NCBI RefSeq assembly: GCF_006438825.1
Contig: NZ_RCZP01000002.1
Span: 94,568-158,567, forward strand
DNA from: Muricoccus nepalensis
Lineage (GTDB): Bacteria > Pseudomonadota > Alphaproteobacteria > Acetobacterales > Acetobacteraceae
Direction of reading: 5' to 3'
DNA length: 64,000 bases
Under the pieces are notes generated by a model that had not been told where the DNA came from, made no database searches, and saw nothing but the letters and a program-made list of their open reading frames with translations. How positions within the stretch are numbered: position 1 is the first letter of the stretch; every line of letters begins with the position of its first letter. Both the position numbers and the translations under genes were made by a program. Positions 19,308 through 23,722 of this stretch are shown here, one piece after another.

Positions 19308-20942
19308 CTAGCTCCCCGCCGGTGCCAGGGCGGAGAGGCTGGCCGCGACCGCCTCCGCCGCGCGAATGCCATCCACCCCCGCCGAGAGGATGCCGCCCGC
19401 GTAGCCCGCGCCCTCGCCGGCCGGGAAGAGGCCGGGGGTGTTCAGGCTCTGCCCGGTCTCGTCGCGCTTGATGCGCAGCGGCGAGGAGGTGCGCGTCTCC
19501 ACCCCCGTCATCACGGCGTCGGCCATGGCGAAACCCTTGATCTGACGGTCGAAGGCCGGCAGCGCCTCGCGGATGGCGGCCACCGCGAAGGCGGGGAGGC
19601 AGAGGGCGAGGTCGGTCGGCGTGACGCCCGGGCGGTAGGAGGGGACGACGCTGCCGAGCGCCGTGGAGGGCCGCCCGGCGAGGAAGTCCCCCACCCGCTG
19701 GGCGGGCGCGCGGTAGTCGCCTCCGCCGGCGATGAAGGCGCGCTCCTCCAGCTCCCGCTGGAGCGCGATGCCGGCGAGCGGGGAGCCCGGGTAGTCGCGC
19801 TCGGGCGTGATGCTGACCACGATGCCCGCGTTCGCGTTGCGCTCGTTGCGGGAATACTGGCTCATCCCGTTCGTGACCAGGCGCCCGGGCTCGGAGGCGG
19901 CGGCCACGACAGTGCCGCCCGGGCACATGCAGAAGGAGTAGACGGCGCGGCCCTCGGCCTCCGGCGTGCGGCAGTGGTGCACGAGCTTGTAGTCGGCGGC
20001 GCCGAGGATCGGATGGCCAGCCTGCGGGCCGAAGCGGCAGCGGTCGATGAGGCCCTGCGGGTGCTCGATGCGCACGCCGATCGAGAAGGGCTTCGCCTCC
20101 ATGTAGACGCCGCGGTCGTGCAGCATCTCGAAGGTGTCGCGCGCGGAGTGGCCGACGGCGAGGACGGCGTGGTCCGCCTCCAGGAAGGAGCCGTCGGAGA
20201 GGTGCAGGCCGCGCAGGCGCCGGCCGGCGTCGGTCTCGATGCCCTCCACCCGCGTGCCGAAGCGGTACTCGCCGCCCAGCGCCTCGATCGTCGCGCGCAT
20301 GTGCTCGACCATGGAGACGAGGCGGAAGGTGCCGATATGCGGCTTGGAGACGTAGAGGATCTCCTCCGGCGCGCCGGCGCGGACGAATTCCTCCAGCACC
20401 TTGCGGATGCGGTTCGCGCTGTCGCCGATGCCGCTCCAGAGCTTGCCGTCCGAGAAGGTGCCGGCGCCGCCCTCGCCGAACTGGACGTTCGATTCCGGCG
20501 TCAGCACCGAGCGGCGCCAGAGGCCCCAGGTGTCCTGCGTGCGCTGGCGCACCACCTGCCCGCGCTCGATCAGGATCGGGCGGAGGCCCATCTGCGCGAG
20601 GATGAGCATGGCGAAGAGGCCGCAGGGCCCGGCGCCGATCACCACGGGGCGATGGCGCGGCGGCACGGCGGGGGCGGGGGGCAGGCGGTAGCGCGTCTCG
20701 GGCGTGACGGAGACCTGGCGGTGACCCTCGAGCCGCGCCAGCACCGCCGCCTCGTCCCGCAACGCGACGTCGAGCGTGTAGATGAGCGCGATGGCCCCGC
20801 GGCGCCGGGCATCGTGGCCGCGGCGGAAGACGGTGATGTCCAGCACCTCCCCGGGCGGCACGCCCAGGCGCGCGGCGGCGGCGTCGCGCAGCGCGTCGTC
20901 CGCGTGGTCGAGGGGGAGCTTGATCTCGGTGAGGCGAAGCAT
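19308..20942 (-). CDS. FAD-dependent oxidoreductase (uncharacterised FAD/NAD(P) dehydrogenase family)
   Basis: 544 residues. The first 95 form a small alpha/beta N-terminal domain (LRDAAAARLGVPPGEVLDIT) typical of this family. A Rossmann FAD motif follows, VVIGAGPCGLFAMLILAQMG, with QFGEGGAGTFSDGKLW and a C-terminal GLFPAGEGAGYAGGILSAG. The layout matches the large uncharacterised COG2509-type dehydrogenases. No function is established; redox chemistry on an unknown substrate is likely. A TATATC -10-like element lies about 27 bases before the ATG at 20942. It is followed at once by the LLM flavoenzyme. Confidence 0.9.
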   Translation of the reverse strand: MLRLTEIKLPLDHADDALRDAAAARLGVPPGEVLDITVFRRGHDARRRGAIALIYTLDVALRDEAAVLARLEGHRQVSVTPETRYRLPPAPAVPPRHRPVVIGAGPCGLFAMLILAQMGLRPILIERGQVVRQRTQDTWGLWRRSVLTPESNVQFGEGGAGTFSDGKLWSGIGDSANRIRKVLEEFVRAGAPEEILYVSKPHIGTFRLVSMVEHMRATIEALGGEYRFGTRVEGIETDAGRRLRGLHLSDGSFLEADHAVLAVGHSARDTFEMLHDRGVYMEAKPFSIGVRIEHPQGLIDRCRFGPQAGHPILGAADYKLVHHCRTPEAEGRAVYSFCMCPGGTVVAAASEPGRLVTNGMSQYSRNERNANAGIVVSITPERDYPGSPLAGIALQRELEERAFIAGGGDYRAPAQRVGDFLAGRPSTALGSVVPSYRPGVTPTDLALCLPAFAVAAIREALPAFDRQIKGFAMADAVMTGVETRTSSPLRIKRDETGQSLNTPGLFPAGEGAGYAGGILSAGVDGIRAAEAVAASLSALAPAGS

Positions 20943-21013
20943 GGCGGCGGGGATATAGGGTGCTCGCCCGTGGAATGATACACGGCGGGGTGCCCCGCGC
21001 CCGCCGGCCTGCC

Positions 21014-21041
21014 TTGCCCCGGGCGCGGCCTTCCCTAGGAT
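21014..21041 (+). promoter_or_regulatory. Putative promoter of the exported lyase gene
   Basis: TTGCCC at 21014-21019 and TAGGAT at 21036-21041 are separated by 16 bases and lie 58 bases before the ATG at 21100. The spacing and sequence agree with the promoter-like pairs at nhaA and ndk. Confidence 0.45.
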
Positions 21042-21099
21042 GCCCGCCGGCCCCCGGGCGGTCCCTGCCGGCCCGGGCCGGGCCGCGGGGGAATGGGCC

Positions 21100-22641
21100 A
21101 TGCGCCGCTGGATCGTGCTTCTCGGAGTGGCCGCCCTCTGCTCCGCGGCGGACCCGCTGGCCGCCCAGGCGCCCGCCGCCCCGGGGCAGTCCCAGGCCCG
21201 GCCGGCGCCGCGGCGGGACGCCTTCTACTGGCTCGGCGAGATCAACAAGGCCAGCGCCGTCATCAATTCCGAGGAGGGGCTGCTGGACCCCGCGCTGGCG
21301 CCGCGGATCGCGGCGGGGCTGAACCGCGTGCTTCAGGCCGGCGATCGGCCCGGGGGGCCGCGCCCGAGCCTCGTCATCACCTTCGAGCCGCTGCTGATCG
21401 AGGCCGCGGGGGTGGAGGCCACGCTGCTGCACGCGGGGCGGTCGAGCCAGGACATGCTGGCCACCGTGCGCGCCGCCATCCTGCGCGACGAGCTGCTGCG
21501 CCTGTCGGAGGCGCTCGGCCGCACCACGGCGACGATGCTGCGCCTGGCGGAGGCCCAGGCGGCGACGGTCGTGCCGAACTACACCAACGGCGTGGCGGCC
21601 CAGCCCAACAGCTACGGCCACTACCTCCTCGGCCACGTCGCGGGGCTGGAGCGGGACGCGCAGCGGCTGCGGGAGGCCTTCGCGCGGCTCGACCTCTCGC
21701 CCATGGGCACCACCGTGCTGAACGGCACGAGCTGGCCGCTGAACCGGGACCGCATGGCGCGCTACCTCGGCTTCCCCGGCACGGTGGAGAACGCCTACGA
21801 CGCCGCGCAGATCGTGGCGGCCGAGATGCCCGCGGAGATCGGTGCGGTCGCGACCGGCATCGCGCTGCACGCCGGCGCCTTCGTCGAGGACGTCATGACG
21901 CAGTACGCTCAGCCACGGCCCTGGATCCTGCTGCGGGAGGGCGACGGCAACACCTACGTCTCCTCGGCCATGCCGCAGAAGCGCAACCCCGGCCTGCTGA
22001 ACGACACGCGCGCCCAGGCCTCGCGGGTCGTGACGCTGGGGATCGGGCGCGCGATCCAGGCGCACAACATCCCGCCGGGGATGAGCGACGCGAAGGGGGT
22101 GGCCGACAACGTCGCCGTCACCGCCGGCGCCGTCGCGCTGCTGGACGCCTGGGACCGGGTGCTGAAGGCCCTCGTCATCAGCCCCGAGCGCGCGCTGGAG
22201 GAGCTGAACAGCGACTGGACGGCCTCCCAGGAGATCGCGGACGTGCTGATGCGGAAATACCGCCTCCCCTTCCGCGCCGGGCACCACTTCGCCTCCGAGG
22301 TGGTGGACCACGCCAAGGCCCACGATATCCGCCCGACCGACTTTCCCTACGCGGAGGCGCGGCGGATCTACGGGGAGACGCTGCGCGAGATGGGCCTTTC
22401 CCCCGCGGAGCTGCCGATGGGCGAGGCGGAATTCCGCGAGACGCTGGACCCCGTGGCCATCGTCCGCAACCGCGCGACGGCCGGCGGCCCGCAGCCGGCG
22501 GAGATGGCGCGGATGCTGGCCGGCGCGGGCGAGCGCCTGGCCGAGGGCGCGCGCTGGACCGGGGAGCGGCGCGGCCGGATCGACGCCGCGCTGGGCGCGC
22601 TGGACGGGGATTTCGGCCGCCTCCTCGCCCGCGCGCCGTGA
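21100..22641 (+). CDS. Exported argininosuccinate-lyase-like protein (fumarase/ASL superfamily)
   Basis: 513 residues. The first 24 form a signal peptide (MRRWIVLLGVAALCSAADPL, then an AQA cleavage site). The rest aligns with the argininosuccinate lyase fold: LHAGRSSQDMLAT matches HTGRSRNDQ, LNGTSWPLNRDRMARYLGF matches GTAYPIDRE, and SSAMPQKRNPG is the superfamily signature with the catalytic Ser. Where true ASLs have YTH with a catalytic His, this protein has NYTNGVAAQP, so that His is an Asn. A cytosolic urea-cycle role is therefore unlikely; a periplasmic elimination reaction is more plausible. GGGGGAA lies upstream of the ATG. The gene has its own promoter-like element and no obvious operon partner. 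Confidence 0.85.
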   Translation: MRRWIVLLGVAALCSAADPLAAQAPAAPGQSQARPAPRRDAFYWLGEINKASAVINSEEGLLDPALAPRIAAGLNRVLQAGDRPGGPRPSLVITFEPLLIEAAGVEATLLHAGRSSQDMLATVRAAILRDELLRLSEALGRTTATMLRLAEAQAATVVPNYTNGVAAQPNSYGHYLLGHVAGLERDAQRLREAFARLDLSPMGTTVLNGTSWPLNRDRMARYLGFPGTVENAYDAAQIVAAEMPAEIGAVATGIALHAGAFVEDVMTQYAQPRPWILLREGDGNTYVSSAMPQKRNPGLLNDTRAQASRVVTLGIGRAIQAHNIPPGMSDAKGVADNVAVTAGAVALLDAWDRVLKALVISPERALEELNSDWTASQEIADVLMRKYRLPFRAGHHFASEVVDHAKAHDIRPTDFPYAEARRIYGETLREMGLSPAELPMGEAEFRETLDPVAIVRNRATAGGPQPAEMARMLAGAGERLAEGARWTGERRGRIDAALGALDGDFGRLLARAP

Positions 22642-22714
22642 CGTTGCGGGGCGACGCCCCCGCCACCCTTTCCCGCCCGCCGCGTTACGCCCGGGACTTC
22701 GGACGGAGACGGTG

Positions 22715-23722
22715 ATGAAGGCCATGGTGCTGCGGGCCCCCGGCGGGCTGGATCGGATCGAGCGCGCCGAGCGCCCCGACCCCGGACCGCCCGGTGCGGG
22801 CGAGATCCGGGTCGCGCTGCACGCCTCCTCCCTCAACTTCCACGACCTCGGCGTCGCCACGGGGCGGATGCCCTCGGCGGACGGCCGCGTGCTGATGGCC
22901 GACGGCGCCGGGGTGGTCGAAGCTGTGGGCGAGGGCGTGGCGGGGTTCGCGGTGGGCGATCACGTCGTCTCCTGCTTCTTCCCGGACTGGCAGGACGGCG
23001 GCCCGACCGTCGCCGACTTCTCCCGCACCCCCGGCGACGGCATTGACGGCTTCGCGCAGGAGGTGGTGACCCTTCCCGCCACCGCCTTCACCCGCGCGCC
23101 CTGCGGCTTCAGCCACCTGGAGGCCGCGACCCTCACCACGGCGGGGCTCACCGCCTGGCGCGCGCTGGTGGTGGATGGCGGGCTGAAGCCGGGCGACACG
23201 GTGCTGGCGCTGGGCACGGGGGGCGTCTCGATCTTCGCGCTGCAACTCGCGAAGAGGACGGGGGCGCGGGTGATCATCACCTCCTCCTCCGACGAGAAGC
23301 TCGAGCGCGCCCGCGCGCTCGGCGCCGACGAGACCGTGAACTACCGCGCCACCCCCGAATGGGGCGCCCGCGTGCGCGAGCTGACGGGCGGGCGCGGCGT
23401 GGACCACGTCGTGGAGGTCGGCGGGCCCGGCACGCTGCCGCAGTCCATCCAGGCCGTGCGGATCGGCGGGCACATCTCCCTCATCGGCGTGCTGACGGGG
23501 CGGGGCGGGGAGGTGCCGACGGCGCTGCTGATGGCCAAGCAGGCGCGGTTGCAGGGGCTGATCGTCGGCAGCCGGCGCCACCAGGAGGACTTCGTGCGCG
23601 CCCTCGACGGTGGCGGGCTGCGCCCGGTGATCGACCGCGCCTTCCCGCTGGAGGGGCTGGCGGAGGCCTTCCGCTACGAGGAGGGCGCCGGGCACTTCGG
23701 CAAGATCGGGGTGGAGTGGTAG
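22715..23722 (+). CDS. NAD(P)-dependent MDR alcohol dehydrogenase / quinone oxidoreductase-like
   Basis: 335 residues of the medium-chain dehydrogenase family. The GroES-like N-terminal half (IRVALHASSLNFHDLGVATG) lacks the Cys and His-Glu zinc ligands, so it belongs to the zinc-free quinone oxidoreductase-like group. The cofactor site is VLALGTGGVSIFALQLAKRTGARVI in two parts, with VDHVVEVGG and FGKIGVEW at the end. It reduces enones, quinones or similar compounds with NADPH. The ATG at 22715 is chosen over the adjacent GTG at 22712 because of GGAG seven bases upstream. It ends five bases before the convergent BaiN-like gene. Confidence 0.9.
   Translation: MKAMVLRAPGGLDRIERAERPDPGPPGAGEIRVALHASSLNFHDLGVATGRMPSADGRVLMADGAGVVEAVGEGVAGFAVGDHVVSCFFPDWQDGGPTVADFSRTPGDGIDGFAQEVVTLPATAFTRAPCGFSHLEAATLTTAGLTAWRALVVDGGLKPGDTVLALGTGGVSIFALQLAKRTGARVIITSSSDEKLERARALGADETVNYRATPEWGARVRELTGGRGVDHVVEVGGPGTLPQSIQAVRIGGHISLIGVLTGRGGEVPTALLMAKQARLQGLIVGSRRHQEDFVRALDGGGLRPVIDRAFPLEGLAEAFRYEEGAGHFGKIGVEW

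Follow-up and report, generated by a model that had tools for sequence, protein, structure and literature searches.

Closest described lyases and the gene in the window

Argininosuccinate lyase (ASL, ArgH) has a His and Glu pair, and we know of no signal peptide in EDDS lyase, a member of the same superfamily. Enzymes of this superfamily form homotetramers in which three subunits share an active site. EDDS lyase from Chelativorans sp. BNC1 (PDB 6g3d and relatives) is active with a Gln in place of the His at the YT-x motif and keeps the Ser, Lys and Asn of the SS-loop; its pocket residues are named as R112, N113, Q159, N288, D290 and Y320 in the available part of the source (PMC12363623), and the residue letters given there confirmed the EDDS lyase numbering used here. 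Among the papers listed in our literature search for a description of an exported family of such lyases, we found only a proteome study of Achromobacter xylosoxidans. In the part available, this study lists for the periplasmic fraction three uncharacterised "argininosuccinate lyases", for which Tat signals are predicted and Tat export is proposed in preference to Sec, and its authors warn of heavy cytosolic contamination of this fraction (PMC11533796). In two further papers, as far as their available parts go, argininosuccinate lyase is named in lists only (PMC1766932 and PMC7522526).

The gene studied here lies in the window, the whole stretch of 64,000 nucleotides from Muricoccus nepalensis that was analysed. 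It occupies positions 21100..22641 of the + strand (ATG at 21100, stop codon 22639-22641; all features of the gene given below are on this strand) and encodes a protein of 513 amino acids. A putative ribosome-binding-like GGGGGAA (21087..21093) is located 6 nt 5' of the ATG. The product shares the fold, the Lyase_1 and ASL_C2 domains and the SSxMPQK signature with ArgH and delta-2 crystallin, and it differs from them in carrying an export signal and a GRSSQD loop (residues 113-118, 21436..21453), where ArgH has GRSRND. The Pfam scores were 85.8 bits for Lyase_1 (cut-off 27) and 34.9 bits for ASL_C2 (cut-off 27.3), and the modelled fold and the SSxMPxKxN loop with the catalytic Ser likewise place the protein in the Lyase_1 superfamily.

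An earlier note on this DNA had claimed a signal peptide, the SSAMPQKRNP signature and an Asn in place of the His of the YTH motif, and all three are present in this reading frame. The product opens with MRRWIVLLGVAALCSAADPLAAQAPAAP, which we read as a putative signal peptide. Our rule-based scan assigned it to residues 1-24 (21100..21171), so that the N-terminus can be written as MRRWIVLLGVAALCSAADPLAAQA|P, with predicted cleavage after AQA at a site placed by eye. The segment YTNGVAAQP forms residues 161-169; its YTNG motif (residues 161-164, 21580..21591) contains Asn163 (21586-21588) in place of the catalytic His of ASL. SSAMPQKRNP forms residues 288-297 within the signature loop TYVSSAMPQKRNPGLLN (residues 285-301, 21952..22002), in which Ser288, Lys294 and Asn296 are kept and Asn301 replaces the Glu of ASL. 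We take Asn163 and Asn301 to correspond to His162 and Glu296 of ASL in duck numbering.

Neither the THLQ His with its partner Glu nor the GRSRND loop of ArgH is found in the window protein, and its score with the argH equivalog model of NCBIfam was 168.9 bits against a cut-off of 279.5. The top NCBIfam model was that of XcbC from coenzyme M synthesis (NF052535), with 172.6 bits against a cut-off of 575. A separate, ordinary ArgH with the motifs FTHLQPAQP and GSSIMPQKRNP (L002) is encoded on another contig of the same genome, which makes it very improbable that the window gene encodes the arginine-pathway enzyme. Several relatives bear the name "argininosuccinate lyase" in their records, and this database name is probably wrong for the family.

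Export signals, distribution and phylogeny

By identity to the window protein, the family falls into two clades, A (about 62% or more) and B (42-49%). We scanned its members for a positive n-region, a 10-residue hydrophobic core and small residues at the cleavage site, allowing any in-frame start and treating the controls likewise. This rule was passed by 103 of 105 distinct Asn-bearing members versus 1 of 37 cytosolic relatives without the Asn, and by all 20 clade-B members (L014 is counted in both the 105-member and the clade-B set). In the two failures, L065 and L067, the rule overlooked a hydrophobic stretch, and in L176 it chose one lying before the likely signal. The mature chain contains no Cys in 101 and one Cys in 4 of the 105 members, versus 1-7 in each of the 37 cytosolic relatives. 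Counted from the sequences, 14 of the 20 clade-B proteins (L162-L167, L170, L172-L177 and L179) have a CX5C pair directly after the signal peptide and before the lyase domain, which could possibly form a disulfide.

Judged from these signals, the window protein is very probably exported and periplasmic. The earlier note had considered that an alternative downstream start might leave no signal peptide; no such case was found, and we rejected a mis-annotated start of the window gene since the signal peptide is family-wide and both start and signal are kept in relatives. Sec appears more likely than Tat as the export route of the family, because only 9 of the 105 distinct members have RR in the n-region. 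The MRRW of the window protein is among these nine, so Tat, less likely for the family, could be used by this protein itself; the usual flanking pattern of Tat signals was not seen around it.

The note had also not recognised a periplasmic lyase with changed chemistry as a described kind of protein. Its periplasmic part is borne out by the family-wide signal and the Cys-poor mature chain, which make export very probable, whereas the claim of novelty has to be softened, because the Achromobacter list places lyases in a periplasmic fraction of a genus that carries the family. In the Achromobacter genus group, 42 of the 43 genomes searched have the family, with at most one member per genome. Thus, at most one of the three accessions in the available part of that list is probably a family member, and, given also the contamination, the list lends weak support to export.

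Members with at least 44% identity were found in 8 of 60 genomes searched, the genome of the window included, and in 6 of 15 genomes of the genus. A motif-led scan of 84,980 species genomes, one per species, returned 450 stretches that match the family motif and encode a relative, the best 80 of which were kept. These belong to Alpha- and Betaproteobacteria, namely Roseomonas-type genera, Bosea, Methylobacterium, Cupriavidus, Pandoraea, Comamonas, Bordetella and Achromobacter. The gene is also carried by 14 plasmid records (60-80% identity). The wider group around Achromobacter has the family in 97 of 268 genomes (E up to 1e-48), including G975, whose sole match is the outlier L181. Phylum- and class-wide counts of 5/398 and 1/385, both including the genome of the window, are lower bounds, since about three candidates per genome were scored at a strict E-value. 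One genome contains a copy of the gene that is broken by in-frame stops (L020, G019:C63:8843-9852), near a gene that by eye resembles a dicarboxylate symporter.

The note had called for a phylogeny of the signal-peptide-bearing members. In a maximum-likelihood tree of 48 proteins, the exported proteins together with L181 formed one clade with 100/100 support. The branch leading to it measures 2.24 changes per column and separates it from ArgH, from EDDS lyase and from four further types of cytosolic protein. The cytosolic pair L137/L138 grouped with the family side at 99/96 in this first tree, a placement that involves long branches flagged by a warning of the program, and did not do so in a second tree, to which the relative L207 had been added and in which the clade again received 100/100. 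The nearest outlier, L181 (1-2101), is 34% identical to the window protein, has Gln at the His place, three Cys and no signal peptide, and takes a tentative place at the base of the clade in the trees. Its gene lies directly 3' of a gene that resembles TctC by eye. We conclude from the sequences that the family is a Lyase_1 subfamily of its own, neither ArgH nor EDDS lyase, which is large, unnamed and proteobacterial.

Close homologues proven to be cytosolic ASLs, which the note had named as an argument against its reading, were not found among the proteins compared. The nearest case is the signal-less L207 (MT837184.1), a protein not proven to be an ASL that is 50% identical to the window protein and has the same motifs, including the Asn. 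It contains four Cys, its start is probably the GTG at 2835, and it scored higher with the argH model (186.8 bits) than with that of XcbC (161.4 bits). The second tree placed L207 within the exported group as the sister of clade A; the simplest explanation is that it lost its signal, although its branch is long. Since it keeps the Asn without a signal peptide, Asn and export are separable. A gene for a DcuC carrier (NF037994, 353.8 bits, cut-off 100) is situated 42 bp 3' of the L207 lyase gene, and a divergent LysR gene lies upstream. The record is filed as "Bacteriophage sp." from human faeces and contains bacterial genes for a porin, LysR, the lyase, DcuC and a histidine kinase (L207:2736-5672). 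A viral origin was considered and rejected, as this match from a phage collection is a scaffold from faeces, itself unverified, that carries bacterial genes; a scan of viral contigs with L207 gave one weak match (33% over 78 residues).

Active site and fold

Asn163 is present in all 136 aligned family rows. Fifty of these rows came from similarity searches that used no motif pattern (50/50 with Asn), whereas loci picked up with patterns, one of which contains YTN, are among the other 86; therefore, only the fifty are free of bias at this position. A few of the 136 rows represent copies within one genome, any ArgH row lying in a family locus had been taken out beforehand, and the similarity-found outliers L181 (Gln) and L182 (His) are excluded. 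The position of the ASL Glu is occupied by Asn, Ile, Met or Gln and in none of the 136 rows by Glu. Thr162, Ser288, Lys294 and Asn296 are invariant (136/136, in Alpha- and Betaproteobacteria); the row finder itself required a loose form of the signature motif, yet all 136 loci gave a row.

With EDDS lyase the window protein shares the absence of the His and the residues T158, S280, K286 and N288, which are kept as T162, S288, K294 and N296. It differs in most of the pocket: at the positions of R112, N113, Q159, N288, D290 and Y320 it has S, Q, N, N, G and G, and Asn replaces E293. The counterpart of Y320 is Gly327 in one alignment and Met328 in another. Both belong to a family-specific stretch from H322 to K332 (22063..22095) with invariant His322, Asn323, Gly327, Met328, Asp330 and Lys332, where His322, Asn323, Asp330 and Lys332 are new compared to EDDS lyase, whose corresponding stretch contains Tyr320. 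The loop that reads GRSRND in ArgH is GRSSQD in clade A, with Ser-Gln for the Arg-Asn of ASL and EDDS lyase, and GRSRQD, with Arg-Gln, in clade B.

The structural model of the window protein had a mean pLDDT of 88.6, with values below 50 at residues 1-35, the region of the signal peptide. Its closest fold was EDDS lyase, with Z of 37.6-39.0 and an rmsd of 2.4-2.6 across 460-461 residues; identity in these structural alignments was about 24%. Crystallins and ASLs came next with Z of about 31-35, and Foldseek returned the identical order. The model has the superfamily fold, with EDDS lyase closer than ASL. EDDS lyase was the best PDB sequence match as well (7.9e-33 and 2.2e-32).

The same His-to-Asn change had been made by hand in delta-2 crystallin, and the title of PDB entry 1dcn describes the protein as "inactive mutant H162N"; our literature search brought up no paper on H162N in an ASL. 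The family thus presents a natural H-to-N and E-to-N enzyme in a superfamily in which the engineered His change bears an "inactive" title. Since EDDS lyase is active with Gln at the His place, loss of the His need not mean loss of activity; by the same token, the His position varies naturally, and so the Asn alone is no proof of new chemistry. The note had ascribed changed chemistry to the protein because of this substitution. That argument does not suffice by itself; the pocket, however, departs from ASL beyond the His, which makes a changed substrate or chemistry likely.

Proposed reaction and genetic context

With about even confidence, we propose that the family is a periplasmic elimination enzyme, probably Sec-dependent, that would release fumarate from a 2-substituted succinate without a His acid. 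By analogy with the superfamily, Ser288 would take the C3 proton of a C4-dicarboxylate (succinyl unit) bearing a leaving group at C2, and Thr162, Lys294 and Asn296 would hold the aci-carboxylate. Departure of the leaving group from C2 may then need no classical His acid, as in EDDS lyase; this would suit amines or good leaving groups, and the fumarate freed in the periplasm could be imported by the C4-dicarboxylate carriers of the cell. The leaving-group side is remodelled (RN to SQ, D to G, and no Tyr at EDDS-lyase position 320), and N-substituted aspartates or thio-/sulfo-succinates are candidate substrates. DcuC beside L207, a clue to C4-dicarboxylate chemistry, is consistent with this proposal. 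The "inactive" title of 1dcn, by which the same change in an ASL abolishes activity, speaks against it, as does the absence of a conserved operon across the loci examined.

A second clue comes from proteomics. The genome G831, which from its gene spacing we take to be that of Advenella mimigardefordensis DPN7T, has the family gene at 1,942,960-1,944,375. From the positions of etfA (16520, at 1,890,102) and tsf (19340, at 2,211,742), locus tag 16970 is predicted at about 1,941,430; tig (22030) was found no more than about 8.4 kb from where it is predicted, and the next Lyase_1 gene is 0.49 Mb off. By locus-tag position, the G831 family gene therefore fits MIM_c16970. According to the available part of the proteome paper, growth on mercaptosuccinate raised this "putative argininosuccinate lyase" 6.4-fold versus succinate and 3.5-fold versus dithiodipropionate, the protein was 1.9-fold up on dithiodipropionate versus succinate, and a periplasmic DctP receptor was 8.1-fold up on mercaptosuccinate versus succinate (PMC5373536). 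Since the same list, as far as available, contains many stress and envelope proteins, the rise of MIM_c16970 may be unspecific; the available text gives no discussion of this protein (PMC5373536).

The same residues can be read in other ways. The Ser loop might isomerise, cyclise or decarboxylate a periplasmic polycarboxylate without release of fumarate. The missing His-Glu pair in all 136 rows and the appearance of a cycloisomerase (1re5) and the trans-aconitate decarboxylase Tad1 (9h3i) among the fold matches would fit such a reaction, but the nearest relatives by both sequence and fold are C-N lyases, cycloisomerase models scored far below argH and XcbC (best 48.7 bits), and the DcuC gene adjoining L207 suits a C4-dicarboxylate, so we consider this unlikely. 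A special case of the proposed elimination is an EDDS-lyase-like C-N lyase that would split aminopolycarboxylates or EDDS-type metallophores into amine and fumarate outside the cytoplasm. EDDS lyase, likewise without the His, is the best match by sequence and fold, and ZIP-type zinc transporters, which rank with the most frequent downstream families, are encoded by the next gene downstream in 3 of 62 loci. Set against the low overall identity to EDDS lyase, a ZIP link confined to these three loci and a difference at five of the six pocket positions named in the available text, of which N288 alone is kept (clade B also keeps the Arg), this variant appears quite unlikely.

A catalytically dead, exported binding or structural protein, similar in kind to delta-1 crystallin, is improbable: 1dcn, the pocket altered at several places and the lack of conserved neighbours would agree with it, while the invariance of Ser288, Lys294, Asn296 and Thr162 across Alpha- and Betaproteobacteria and the dispensability of the His in EDDS lyase argue against it. 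An acid-free periplasmic C-S elimination on a substrate of the mercapto- or sulfo-succinate type, with sulfide or sulfite released and fumarate passed to TRAP, Dct or TTT importers, has a slight probability; we know of no description of C-S lyase chemistry combined with a periplasmic location in the aspartase/fumarase superfamily. We attach next to no probability to an ordinary cytosolic ArgH with a misread N-terminus, in spite of the names in several records, in view of the separate ArgH with intact THLQ, the argH score below its cut-off, the family-wide signal peptide and the replacement of the ASL residues His, Glu, Arg and Asn.

Export of an ASL relative with a rebuilt active site appears to occur in many soil-dwelling and opportunistic bacteria. 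The family, a variant of a known superfamily, is widespread, uncharacterised and probably mislabelled in databases, being named after an enzyme of arginine synthesis that it very probably is not. If the proposed periplasmic elimination holds, a textbook cytosolic reaction would have been moved outside the inner membrane, pointing to a nutrient, chelator or signal that these bacteria dismantle before uptake. The family is of moderate interest now and would be of high interest if a periplasmic substrate were found.

No widely shared neighbour was detected among 81 loci by heuristic gene picking and clustering. For the immediate neighbours, the commonest Pfam family occurred in 4 of 64 loci upstream (among the best 25 of 75 families) and in 3 of 62 loci downstream (among the best 25 of 57); these tallies leave out genes of more than 720 residues (74 upstream and 72 downstream remained) and then ten near-duplicates per side. 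The most shared cluster in 16 clade-B loci was TctC-like (6/16, not always adjacent). TctC-like genes lie within up to 8 kb in 22 of the 81 loci, directly upstream in some (L039, L061, L094). We discounted this TctC (Bug) neighbourhood as functional evidence and gave it no weight, because the genome of the window alone has at least 150 genes for TctC, the TTT receptor, in 6.5 Mb (150 of 197 candidates scored).

TRAP DctP- and DctQ-like genes were recognised by eye in five loci, e.g. L077. An upstream gene cluster is common to L077, L078, L079, L083 and L096 and, as these loci are mostly from Bosea, reflects one clade at best. In the window, a gene identified by Pfam as encoding an MDR/zinc-type dehydrogenase (22712-23722, + strand) follows 70 bp 3' of the lyase gene, and its cluster occurs in 6 of the 81 loci. 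The divergent gene at 19308-21101 (- strand) appears FAD-dependent-like by eye. As listed, this frame runs into the beginning of the lyase gene; its translation therefore probably begins further inside, which would leave a short upstream region common to both genes, and no site resembling a sigma-70 promoter was found in it. The Pandoraea loci L064, L072 and L090 have in common a downstream gene for a protein of 258 residues.
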